Origin: Clostridiales bacterium
GTDB taxonomy: Bacteria; Bacillota; Clostridia; Christensenellales; Borkfalkiaceae
Direction: 5' to 3'
DNA: 63,408 bases
NCBI GenBank assembly: GCA_015069495.1
Contig: SVIN01000011.1
Location: forward strand, 1-63,408
In this document: positions 55,284-58,762 of the stretch, one piece after another
Numbering within the stretch: the stretch's first letter is position 1
How the letters are laid out: each line of letters opens with the position of its first letter
Notes under the pieces: model-generated
Told to the model about the DNA's origin: nothing
Databases searched by the model: none
Seen by the model: the letters and a program-made list of their open reading frames with translations, nothing else
Position numbers and translations under genes: made by a program

Positions 55284-55315
55284 CCTGCGTAATCTTATGG
55301 TTGCGCAGGGTTTTT
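55284..55315 (+). terminator. Terminator of valS
   Basis: CCTGCGTAA/TTGCGCAGG stem with one wobble pair and a T5 tail. Confidence 0.82.
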
Positions 55316-55357
55316 CCTTAAATTTTATAAAAAATCAAAAAAAGTGCCTTCAAACAT

Positions 55358-55386
55358 TTGACAAACTTGATTTTTGATGTTAAAAT
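55358..55386 (+). promoter_or_regulatory. Promoter of the str operon
   Basis: TTGACA, 17 nt, TAAAAT at 55381-55386. The 163-nt leader before rpsL contains minor stems such as ATTTC-TTT-GAAAT but nothing I can name. Confidence 0.8.
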
Positions 55387-55549
55387 GTTATCGTTGTGTT
55401 TTGGGCGTACTATGCCCTCAAGAAGGCAAATCTCAGCAAAAGAAAGGGGTTTGGGACAAGCGCAACCACTCAATTCGATTTCTTTGAAATTGCGATAAGG
55501 GTAATTTCGAGGAGATATATTCCAAAATTTTTACAAGGAGGTCAAATAC

Positions 55550-55924
55550 ATGCCTACTATTAACCAGCTCATCAAAAAGGGTAGAGAACGTATCACGTAC
55601 AAGTCCAAGAGTCCTATTCTTGACAACTGCCCTCAGAAGCGCGGCGTTTGTTTGTCCGTAACCACGACTTCTCCTAAGAAGCCCAACTCCGCTATGCGTA
55701 AGATTGCTCGTGTACGTCTTACCAACAAGCAGGAAGGTACGGTTTACATTCCCGGTGAAGGTCACAACCTTCAAGAACACAGCTCTGTTTTGATCAGAGG
55801 CGGCCGTGTTAAGGACTTGCCCGGTGTACGTTATCACATCATCCGTGGCGCACTTGACACCGCAGGTGTTGCTAAGCGTAAGCAGTCCCGTTCGAAGTAC
55901 GGTGCAAAGCGTCCTAAAAACTAA
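55550..55924 (+). CDS. rpsL: 30S ribosomal protein S12
   Basis: A 124-residue decoding-site protein, complete: [12 protein letters not shown] start, [13 protein letters not shown] with the lysine linked to streptomycin response, and [24 protein letters not shown] precedes the ATG. First gene of the str operon. Confidence 0.98.
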
Positions 55925-56197
55925 GGGATAACGCCAAGTAACAAACTGAAAAGTATTTACTTTTCACGAGTGTCGGTCACTCGTTAATCTACCGAAAGTC
56001 GGTTGCGTTTTAAGACTATGAAACCAAAACGCAAAAGACCTACTTGCAATCGGAATATCGCTCGAAAAGCCCCGAATAAAAGTAGGCAGTATGCAACGCA
56101 AGTTGCAGAAGATTCGCACTCCGCATAGTTCGGAAGCGCGATAGCTGTACTGAAGGGTAAAACCCTTATCAAAAATTATCAAAGGAGGATTAATATT
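55925..56197 (+). promoter_or_regulatory. Structured RNA spacer between rpsL and rpsG
   Basis: A 273-nt noncoding stretch, long for this junction. By eye it holds a chain of stems: 55948-55965; ACGAGTG/CACTCGT 55966-55984; ACCGA/TCGGT 55991-56003; TTGCGTTTT/AAAACGCAA 56003-56034; CCTACTT/AAGTAGG 56039-56086 with inner TCGG/CCGA; CAGTA/TACTG 56087-56152 enclosing TGCAAC-GCAA-GTTGCA (GNRA loop, 56092-56107) and an internal-loop stem 56115-56138; GGGT/ACCC 56155-56164. In E. coli S7 binds this spacer to repress its own synthesis; a similar role is inferred here. Confidence 0.6.
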
Positions 56198-56668
56198 ATG
56201 CCTAGAAGAGGTAATGTACCTAAAAGAGAAGTTCTGCCCGATCCTATGTATAACAGCAAGGTTGTTACGAAGTTAATCAACCAAATCATGCTCGACGGTA
56301 AAAAAGGCACGGCGCAGGCAATCGTTTACGAAGCATTCCAGATCATGGGTGACAAACTTGGTATGGACCCCATGGAAATTTTCAAGCAGGCAATGGAAAA
56401 CGTTATGCCTGTTGTAGAAGTAAAAGCTCGCCGTGTAGGTGGTGCTAACTATCAGGTGCCTATCGAAATCAGACCTGAAAGACGTCAAACTCTTGCTATC
56501 CGTTGGCTTGTTATCAACACGAGAAAGCGTAGCGAAAGAGAAATGGCAAAGAGACTTGCTGCGGAACTTATGGACGCGTACAACAATACCGGTGGTTCCG
56601 TAAAGAAGAAAGAAGATACGCATAGAATGGCTGAAGCTAACAAGGCATTCGCGCACTTCAGATTCTAA
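56198..56668 (+). CDS. rpsG: 30S ribosomal protein S7
   Basis: A 156-residue primary 16S rRNA-binding protein of the small-subunit head. [20 protein letters not shown] and [17 protein letters not shown] are diagnostic. AAAGGAGG precedes the ATG. Separated from rpsL by the structured spacer and from fusA by 12 nt. Confidence 0.98.
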
Positions 56669-56680
56669 GAGAGGTAAAAT

Positions 56681-58762
56681 ATGGCTAGAGAATACGATTT
56701 GCTTCATACCAGAAACTTTGGTATTATGGCGCACATCGACGCAGGTAAGACGACGACGACCGAACGTATCCTTTTCTACACGGGTAAAACCCACAAGATC
56801 GGTGATACGCACGAAGGTACGGCAGTCATGGACTGGATGGCACAGGAACAAGAACGTGGTATCACGATTACTTCCGCTGCTACCACCTGTGTTTGGAAAA
56901 ACCATCGTTTCAACATCATCGATACCCCGGGTCACGTTGACTTCACGGTAGAAGTTGAACGTTCCCTTCGTGTATTGGACGGTGCTGTTGCAACGTTCTG
57001 TGCAAAGGGTGGTGTTGAACCTCAGTCCGAAACCGTTTGGAGACAGGCTGACAACTATGGTGTTCCTCGTATCGCATACGTAAACAAGATGGATATCAAT
57101 GGTGCGGACTACTTCCGTGTTGAAAATATGATCCGCGAAAGATTGGGCGCAAACCCTGTCCCCATCGAACTTCCCATCGGTAAAGAAGAAACCTTCAAGG
57201 GTATCATCGACCTTATCCGCATGGAAGCAGAAGTTTACTATGACGACCTTGGTAAGGATTTCCGTAAGGAACCTATCCCTGCCGACATGTTGGACATCGC
57301 AAACGAATACAGAGCAAAATTGGTTGAAGAAGCTGCATCTGCAAGCGACGAACTTATGGAAAAATTCTTTGAAGAAGGGGATTTGTCCGAAGAAGATATT
57401 ATTGCTGGTCTTCGTACCCGCTGTCTTAGAATGGAAGCGATCCCTATGCTTTGCGGTTCTTCCTACAAGAACAAGGGTGTACAATTCTTGCTTGACGCAG
57501 TTATCAGCTTCTTGCCTAGTCCTTTGGACGTAGACAACGTTAAGGGTGTTAACCCCGATACGGATGCTGAAGAAATCAGAGAAACTTCTGACGATGCACC
57601 TTTCGCAGGTCTTGCATTCAAAATTGCAACCGACCCCTTCGTTGGTTCGCTTGCATATTTCCGTGCATATTCTGGTACGCTTCCCGCAGGTTCCTACGTG
57701 TATAACTCCACGAAGGAAAAGAAAGAACGTGTAGGCCGTTTGGTACAAATGCACGCTAACGAAAGAAAGGATATCCCCGAAATTTGTGCTGGTGATATCT
57801 GCGCTATGGTTGGTTTGAAGTATACCACGACGGGTGACACGCTTTGCGATGAAAAGCACCCCATCATCCTTGAAAAGATGGTATTCCCTGAACCCGTTAT
57901 TCAGCTTTCCCTTGAACCTAAGACCAAAGCTGGTCAGGAAAAGATGACGATGGCTCTTATCAAACTTGCAGAAGAAGACCCTACGTTCAAGACGTATACC
58001 GATCAAGAAACGGGTCAAACAATCATCGCAGGTATGGGTGAGTTGCACCTCGACATCATCGTTGACCGTTTGCTCCGCGAATTCAAGGTAGAAGCAAACG
58101 TTGGCGCTCCTCAGGTTGCATACAGAGAAACCTTCCGCCGTGAAGTGGAAGCTGAAGGTATGTACAAGCGTCAATCGGGTGGTAAAGGTCAATACGGTCA
58201 TTGTAAACTTCGCCTTATTCCTCAGGAACCCGGCGCAGGCTATGCGTTCGAAGATGCAACGGTCGGCGGTTCGATTCCTAAAGAATATATCCCTGCAATC
58301 GACAAGGGTATTCAAGAAGCAGCGAAAAACGGTTTCCTTGCTGGCTACGAAATGGTAGACTTCAAGGTTGTCGTATACGATGGTTCGTACCACGAAGTCG
58401 ACTCGTCTGAAATGGCGTTCAAGATTGCAGGTTCCATGGGCTTCAAGAACGGTATGGAAAAAGCTCAACCCGTTCTCCTCGAACCCATCATGAAGGTTCA
58501 AATCATCACCCCTGAAGATTACTTCGGTGACCTTATGGGTAACGTATCTGGTCGTCGTGGTACGATTCTTGGTACGGATGACAGAAACGGTGCGAAGATT
58601 ATCGACGCAGAAATTCCTCTTTCCGAAATGTTCGGTTACGCAACGGAACTCCGTTCGAGAACGCAAGGCCGTGGTCAATTCACGATGCAGTTCGATCATT
58701 ACAACGAAGTACCTTCCAGCATTTCCAAAGAAATCGTTGAAAAGCGCGGTAAGAAAGACTAA
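56681..58762 (+). CDS. fusA: Elongation factor G
   Basis: A 693-residue translational GTPase driving ribosome translocation. GTP motifs [18 protein letters not shown] and NKMD are present, with effector loop [11 protein letters not shown]. All five domains fit the length. GAGAGGT precedes the ATG. A hairpin follows at 58770. Confidence 0.97.

Follow-up and report, generated by a model that had tools for sequence, protein, structure and literature searches.

Among the described systems closest to the RNA reported here is the control of the str operon by ribosomal protein S7 (uS7) in Escherichia coli, which we take as precedent (passages of PMC10931766). According to these passages, S7 represses rpsG only when its translation is coupled to that of rpsL, and rpsL is controlled through destabilised mRNA. 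The same passages consider a similar S7 mechanism likely in cyanobacteria, and report no obvious conservation of the mRNA structure of E. coli, although many species have long S12-S7 distances. The cyanobacterial rpsL-rpsG spacer, known here by that description only, is said to resemble the S7 site of 16S rRNA and shares with our locus its place and the idea of mimicry. Two other systems have been described for these genes. The rpsL motif of Candidatus Pelagibacter ubique is likewise a structured RNA of this gene group; as presented in part of PMC2704228, it differs in lying before rpsL, occasionally before rpsG or fusA, and in having a bulged P1 and a three-stem junction, and it is reported there only from Candidatus Pelagibacter ubique and marine samples. 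The rpsL-leader attenuators, in passages of PMC2965389, also belong to the str operon, with S7 discussed as a partner, but they are terminator-based and stand 5' of rpsL, or of fusA in streptococci.

We analysed a stretch of 63,408 nucleotides from a Clostridiales bacterium of the family Borkfalkiaceae (order Christensenellales; contig SVIN01000011.1), which we call the window. The gene order at the locus is rpsL-rpsG-fusA-tuf, the genes being named via their translations. As the original prediction had stated, the spacer between the end of rpsL at 55924 and the start of rpsG at 56198 measures exactly 273 nt; the E. coli spacer, which had been put at about 100 nt, measures 96 nt. The features of the locus are as follows.

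55358..55386, plus strand: promoter-like site 5' of rpsL (TTGACA-17-TAAAAT, with TG before the second hexamer), a consensus match only
55550..55924, plus strand: rpsL (S12), open reading frame named via its translation
55925..56197, plus strand: rpsL-rpsG spacer, delimited by the reading-frame borders, holding the structured RNA
55947..56039, plus strand: genus-level 5' hairpins, from the minimum free energy (MFE) fold, an inverted repeat and alignment A1, outside the family-wide core
56039..56086, plus strand: P1, which encloses P2, and a variable tip
56087..56111, plus strand: P4 hairpin with a putative sarcin-ricin-type 4x3 internal loop, directly after P1
56114..56141, plus strand: P5 stem-loop (56114-56117 with 56138-56141; distal stem 56119-56123 with 56131-56136)
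56141-56150, plus strand: conserved AUAGCUGUAC, directly after P5
56153..56167, plus strand: P6 hairpin (AAGGGU/ACCCUU), between the core and the Shine-Dalgarno sequence, with covariation
56181..56188, plus strand: Shine-Dalgarno sequence AAAGGAGG of rpsG, identified from the sequence
56198..56668, plus strand: rpsG (S7), open reading frame named via its translation, presumed regulator and first regulated gene
56681..58762, plus strand: fusA (EF-G), which follows rpsG in the str operon after 12 nt, named via its translation

We found that the spacer folds with an MFE of -73.2 kcal/mol, versus a mean of -55.9 in dinucleotide shuffles (z -3.87; 0 of 200 shuffles as good), and the MFE fold contains approximately 10 stems by our count. 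Both results agree with the original description of about nine stems, too ordered for chance. The opposite strand folds even better (z -5.03), and folding energy alone therefore cannot choose the strand. The E. coli S7 site shares with this locus the rpsL-rpsG position and the expected ligand and logic, whereas its spacer is 96 rather than 273 nt long, lacks the AGUA-helix-GAA hairpin seen in P4 and shows no fold beyond chance (z -1.03). We read the window's RNA as E. coli's kind of device made with a different RNA, set apart by length, hairpin scan and fold score. With regard to a possible leader peptide, the spacer overlaps six open reading frames of at least 20 aa, of which three either lie on the plus strand or extend from rpsL into the spacer, and spacer lengths among relatives vary widely. 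No second copy was found in the window's genome, where the sole other match spans 16 nt (E 0.41).

Rfam 15 returned 0 matches in the window at gathering thresholds. When matches with E up to 5 were admitted between 55400 and 56300, the sole one was TLS-PK6 (E 0.42; 19.5 bits against a cut-off of 44), so that the Rfam search proposed with the original prediction yielded no family for the spacer. Furthermore, we found no description of the RNA in the main texts of the literature searched, including the parts consulted of PMC7247131, PMC8040213 and PMC11109978; the last lists 30 ribosomal leader candidates, and for it the statement applies to passages. A text look-up in PMC8632094 gave no mention of rpsG, rpsL, uS7 or ribosomal protein.

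The family-wide core comprises only the 3' half of the spacer, 56039-56171 (133 nt). This corrects a detail of the original prediction: the 5' hairpins, at about 55947-55966, 55967-55983, 55991-56003 and 55998-56039, are genus-level features. Among them, the hairpin element GTCGGTTGCGTTTTAAGACT..AAAACGCAAAAGAC at 55998-56039 occurs in 26 of 30 genus spacers and is more conserved than its surroundings. In the core, P1 pairs 56039-56045 with 56080-56086 (CCUACUU/AAGUAGG) and shows little variation within the family; one genome of a different family (L127) has CCAAGUA/UACUUGG instead, with the pairing judged by eye. P2 pairs 56050-56053 with 56072-56075 (UCGG/CCGA). P4 is based on C56087-G56111, followed by AGUA (56088-56091) opposite GAA (56108-56110), the flank pair U56092-A56107 and a stem extending to 56097/56102. 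GCAGUAU and AGAAG are present in all 30 genus spacers, which were cut by gene borders only, and the family alignment found by covariance model has CAGUA and GAAG in each of its 57 rows (56 distinct), with U-A as the pair beside the loop in 53 rows and C-G in 4. By its sequence and this covarying flank pair, the loop has the pattern of a sarcin-ricin or G-bulged module. The GNRA tetraloop of the original prediction is real in the window (GCAA, 56098-56101) but optional, since P4 ends in a GNRA loop in 14 of the 30 genus copies and in 24 of the 56 distinct copies from the family, making it common and dispensable. In the 3' tail AGC is highly conserved, with 55 to 57 of 57 rows per column. CAGUA stands 90-181 nt ahead of the rpsG start in 51 of 53 spacers, and 57-175 nt separate it from the rpsL stop. 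In the other two of the 53 spacers, L062 and L070 (808 and 768 nt), a repeat-like stretch of over 600 nt intervenes between the RNA and rpsG.

Next, we examined conservation within the genus. S7 was detected in 33 of 57 genomes and in 11 of the 12 good ones, most genomes being incomplete, and 30 of the 33 spacers were extracted, the window's own included, with no locus obtained for the other three. These orthologous spacers are 215-286 nt long (n = 30), and in their MAFFT alignment the 3' half is nearly invariant and the 5' half variable. On the structure-blind MAFFT alignment, RNAalifold returned 38 pairs, 9 of them with compensatory changes; the original prediction had named similar-length orthologous spacers without such changes as evidence against it, and we observe the opposite. 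Across the family, a covariance model of the core matched 206 of 251 genomes, 135 of 152 good ones and all 18 genera, with one match per genome in all listed positives except G159, which has two. The 45 misses are no proof of absence, because the filters are strict and many genomes are incomplete.

Upon aligning 57 copies (56 distinct), 94.2% of the cells were paired, compared to 37-48% when the partners were slid by 1-3 columns. In 99 copies (92 distinct), 93.1% of the cells were paired, 27 of 36 pairs had changed on both sides, and 391 cells carried changes on both sides versus 125.7 in shuffles. We then ranked column pairs at least 4 kept columns apart against a tree-simulated null, for which 12 of 20 simulated alignments were used. 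The seven top-ranked pairs are all helix pairs and lie above every value in the 12 null alignments, and 8 of the 36 structural pairs beat the null in all 12. The significant pairs sit in P4, outer P5 and P6, whereas P1, P2 and inner P5 vary too little in the family for this test. Among the closer column pairs (fewer than 4 apart), the best is the structural pair 195-330, and the next two are non-structural with scores of 55.9 and 53.8, inside the null range. Alignments A4 and A7 favour the modelled structure because they were fitted to the model, in contrast to the MAFFT alignments A1 and A2, which were not; in A4, L062 and L102 are the same place. A7 combines 23 rows found by covariance model with 76 found by pattern (99 in all), 4 of the 80 listed pattern loci having been omitted, and its invariance is partly by construction, because the search pattern of those 76 rows fixes GTAGGCAGTAT and AGAAGRTTCGC. 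Similarly, alignment A6, for which 38 of 40 loci passed a regular expression and 2 of the 38 were then dropped to leave 36 rows, cannot show invariance because the expression required GCAGTA and GAAG.

These results show that the spacer contains a conserved structured RNA. Sarcin-ricin modules are common in RNA, and shuffling yields the AGUA-helix-GAA hairpin by itself in 23 of 1000 cases for the spacer and in 28 of 300 for E. coli 16S rRNA, which tempers the 16S comparison made below. The figure for the spacer is what could be said for functionless chance folding. We give that reading virtually no weight, since conservation and covariation extend over 18 genera, and regard it as already refuted by the covariation. 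The original prediction had also offered an embedded small RNA. A stand-alone small RNA hosted in the spacer would be in line with the discrete fold and with the folding of the antisense strand, but there is no plus-strand promoter-like site inside the spacer, the match is single in each listed positive genome (G159 excepted), the neighbours are constant, rpsG adjoins wherever checked and its distance is mostly constant; we consider such an RNA highly improbable. On the minus strand, a weak promoter-like match lies at 56204-56175.

The lack of a plus-strand promoter-like site also fits an element of mRNA processing or stability, that is, an RNase site or barrier that would set the S12:S7 mRNA ratio without a ligand. 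Such an element would also accord with the long structured spacer, with P6 near the rpsG start and with a core devoid of terminator-like sites; of the two terminator-like matches (a G+C-rich hairpin with a T run after it) in 55300-56300 (shuffles mean 0.8), neither lies in the core, the plus-strand one being at 55991-56003, and no T run follows P6 on its 3' side in the window. Against this stand the non-Watson-Crick loop residues, invariant in 57 of 57 rows, and the conserved AGC of the 3' tail, which suggest a recognised surface over a plain barrier, and we judge a ligand-free element to be rather improbable.

Furthermore, we investigated how far the RNA reaches beyond the genus and family. 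When one genome per GTDB species was scanned with a pattern, at least 120 stretches matched, 80 of which were listed. Among the 80 listed copies, 74 are flanked by S12 upstream and S7 downstream; an end of the fetched DNA truncates 5 on the S12 side and 1 on the S7 side, and none stands elsewhere. They bear the titles Clostridia, Clostridiales, Eubacteriales or Firmicutes, almost all come from metagenome-assembled or uncultured genomes, many with animal-gut sample names, and they include Candidatus Borkfalkia faecipullorum and Candidatus Gallimonas merdigallinarum, genera that the NCBI taxonomy places in Christensenellales and in Clostridia incertae sedis, respectively. In the order, model R2 matched 27 of 297 genomes. 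Of these, 23 belong to Borkfalkiaceae and 4 to two further families, and in each of the 4 the match falls in the rpsL-rpsG spacer. Weak antisense R2 matches, such as window 55977-56086 on the minus strand (E 0.0019), were put down to self-complementary helices and disregarded.

Via S7 we also located 60 spacers in the order, drawn from 29 families besides the window's own, namely the 20 best-matching loci and 40 picked ones (one to three per family, but five from f19, where the RNA was already known). A strict scan of these 60, together with 3 loci found by covariance model and 9 from the window's own family, detected the AGUA-helix-GAA hairpin in 9/9 own-family spacers, 1/1 from f9, 6/7 from f19 and 3/3 from f29. 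The seventh f19 spacer (L125) has the motif with a shorter stem, and the strict scan found the hairpin in 0 of 52 spacers of the other 26 families, long spacers included. Diverged copies thus occupy the rpsL-rpsG spacer in three other families of the order (f9, f19 and f29). In a weakly resolved S12 tree the window's family, f19 and f29 group together with one stray f30 row, and f9 stands apart; a single origin of the RNA across these families is possible. Across the class (391 genomes), model R3 matched 17 times, 6 times in the window's family and 11 times elsewhere, and we attribute the latter 11 to chance because their loci of approximately 3 kb contain neither S12 nor S7. Overall, within the genomes sampled, the RNA looks confined to part of the order.

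Other rpsL-rpsG spacers of the order displayed different elements. Six long spacers (L160, L161, L176, L177, L186 and L193, from f4, f17, f23 and f33) carry GGAACG in an apparent hairpin and are without the AGUA-helix-GAA hairpin; they are possibly a second, unrelated S7 leader type. In three f13 spacers of 127-145 nt (L140, L143 and L153), a near-identical element around ATGCTGACGGAGCGATGA, unlike the window's RNA, is possibly a third. Additionally, TCGGATG stands shortly past the rpsL stop in nine short spacers spanning several families (L145, L151, L159, L164, L166, L167, L174, L178 and L195).

We then compared P4 with the S7 site of 16S rRNA. In 16S rRNA, sarcin-ricin-like motifs are described at h27, at h17 and at the h28/h29/h43 three-way junction, the last without one tSH pair (passages of PMC8450098), and the absence of that pair fits the 4x3 loop of P4. 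In E. coli 16S, positions 1346-1349 read AGTA and 1373-1375 GAA, and the AGUA-helix-GAA hairpin occurs only at 432 and 1346/1373; in the 16S of two family genomes it occurs once, at the position matching E. coli 1346/1373, which is the h28/h29/h43 junction bound by S7. S7 cross-links to A1377-C1378 of 16S, according to part of PMC3548175. Beyond the shared AGUA/GAA, 4x3 loop and place at a hairpin base, the flanking helices, in our reading, follow in the same order in both RNAs, with one helix strand ending just before AGUA (h29 in 16S, P1 in the leader) and another beginning shortly after GAA (h28 and P5, respectively). The two differ in that the strand joining h28 to h29 in 16S is open in the leader, and their helix sequences agree in part only. 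The window genome's own 16S was not found, and 3 of 13 family genomes queried yielded any 16S, so the comparison rests on E. coli and two family genomes of other genera. P5 resembles strands of both h28 and h29 and fully matches neither. We hold only weakly to P5 as a straight copy of 16S h29 (UCGCUA/CAAGCG), given that the family's own h29 is GUUGCU/AGCAGC, unlike P5 in most genera.

That the AGUA/GAA hairpin lies only at the S7 site in the two family 16S rRNAs bears on the identity of the ligand. A conserved cis-regulatory RNA of the str operon could instead respond to a small molecule, an assembly factor or a ribosomal protein other than S7, and AUAGCUGUAC and P2 (UCGGAA..CCCGA) indeed have no obvious counterpart at the S7 site when the alignment is inspected by eye. 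The 16S comparison, the place just before rpsG and the E. coli precedent of S7 control (passages of PMC10931766) weigh against such a ligand, which we deem unlikely. Our preferred reading, which we consider likely, is that the spacer is a cis-acting uS7 autoregulatory leader that represses rpsG and the coupled EF-G gene via P1-P4-P5, where we infer S7 as the ligand, the sign of the effect and the mode of action. The original suggestion of a new S7 leader type gains support from the fixed place before rpsG, the covariation, the module shared with the 16S S7 site and the lack of an Rfam match. The RNA is very probably a new uS7 leader type, absent from Rfam, with ligand and mechanism predicted.

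In the uS7 leader reading, the E. coli logic of rpsL-coupled S7 repression would carry over to the window's RNA. S7 in excess over free 16S rRNA would bind the mRNA at the P1-P4-P5 fold, where the sarcin-ricin loop of P4 would copy the h28/h29/h43 junction, and the bound protein would stop ribosomes from moving on from rpsL to rpsG, or would prevent initiation at rpsG, leading to less S7 and, through coupling, less EF-G. In 50 of the 52 spacers measured, the conserved GATAGC after P5 begins 49-79 nt ahead of the start codon, which we judge too far for a simple overlap with the initiating ribosome; for this reason three modes are candidates, namely blocked ribosome passage, mRNA decay and a folded complex that extends to the start. 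The predicted Shine-Dalgarno sequence is about half open (median unpaired probability 0.56 in 53 spacers), so that no blocking mechanism is visible; this and the gap of over 600 nt between the RNA and rpsG in L062 and L070 count against the leader reading.

Three further pairings were considered and not adopted. The 5' strand of P1 could pair with AAGGAGG with one mismatch as an anti-Shine-Dalgarno sequence, but P1 is replaced in L127; the 3' strand of P6 was tried in the same role, but it changes with its partner while the Shine-Dalgarno sequence is constant (both judged by eye). P3 (CAGUA/UACUG) is favoured energetically, with a pair probability of approximately 0.65 in the window, and by RNAalifold, but we set it aside because its 5' strand CAGUA never changes in 57 rows while its 3' strand does; as a result, the outermost two pairs of P3 fail in 15 and 10, respectively, of the 56 distinct rows. 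P3 may still be an alternative state.

We also offer, as a possible and tentative reading to be taken as a whole, that the clade has its own S7 brake, which would rebuild the sarcin-ricin three-way junction of the S7 nucleation site; that the order holds at least two further unrelated long rpsL-rpsG RNAs, S7 control having been invented repeatedly within it; and that the RNA may act as a switch, in which CAGUA would either pair with UACUG in P3 or form the sarcin-ricin loop, with S7 selecting the latter. The finding provides an S7-leader candidate that is conserved and covaries, contains a defined rRNA-like module and comes in approximately 200 natural variants (206 genomes), which makes rRNA mimicry by S7 leaders directly testable in vitro.
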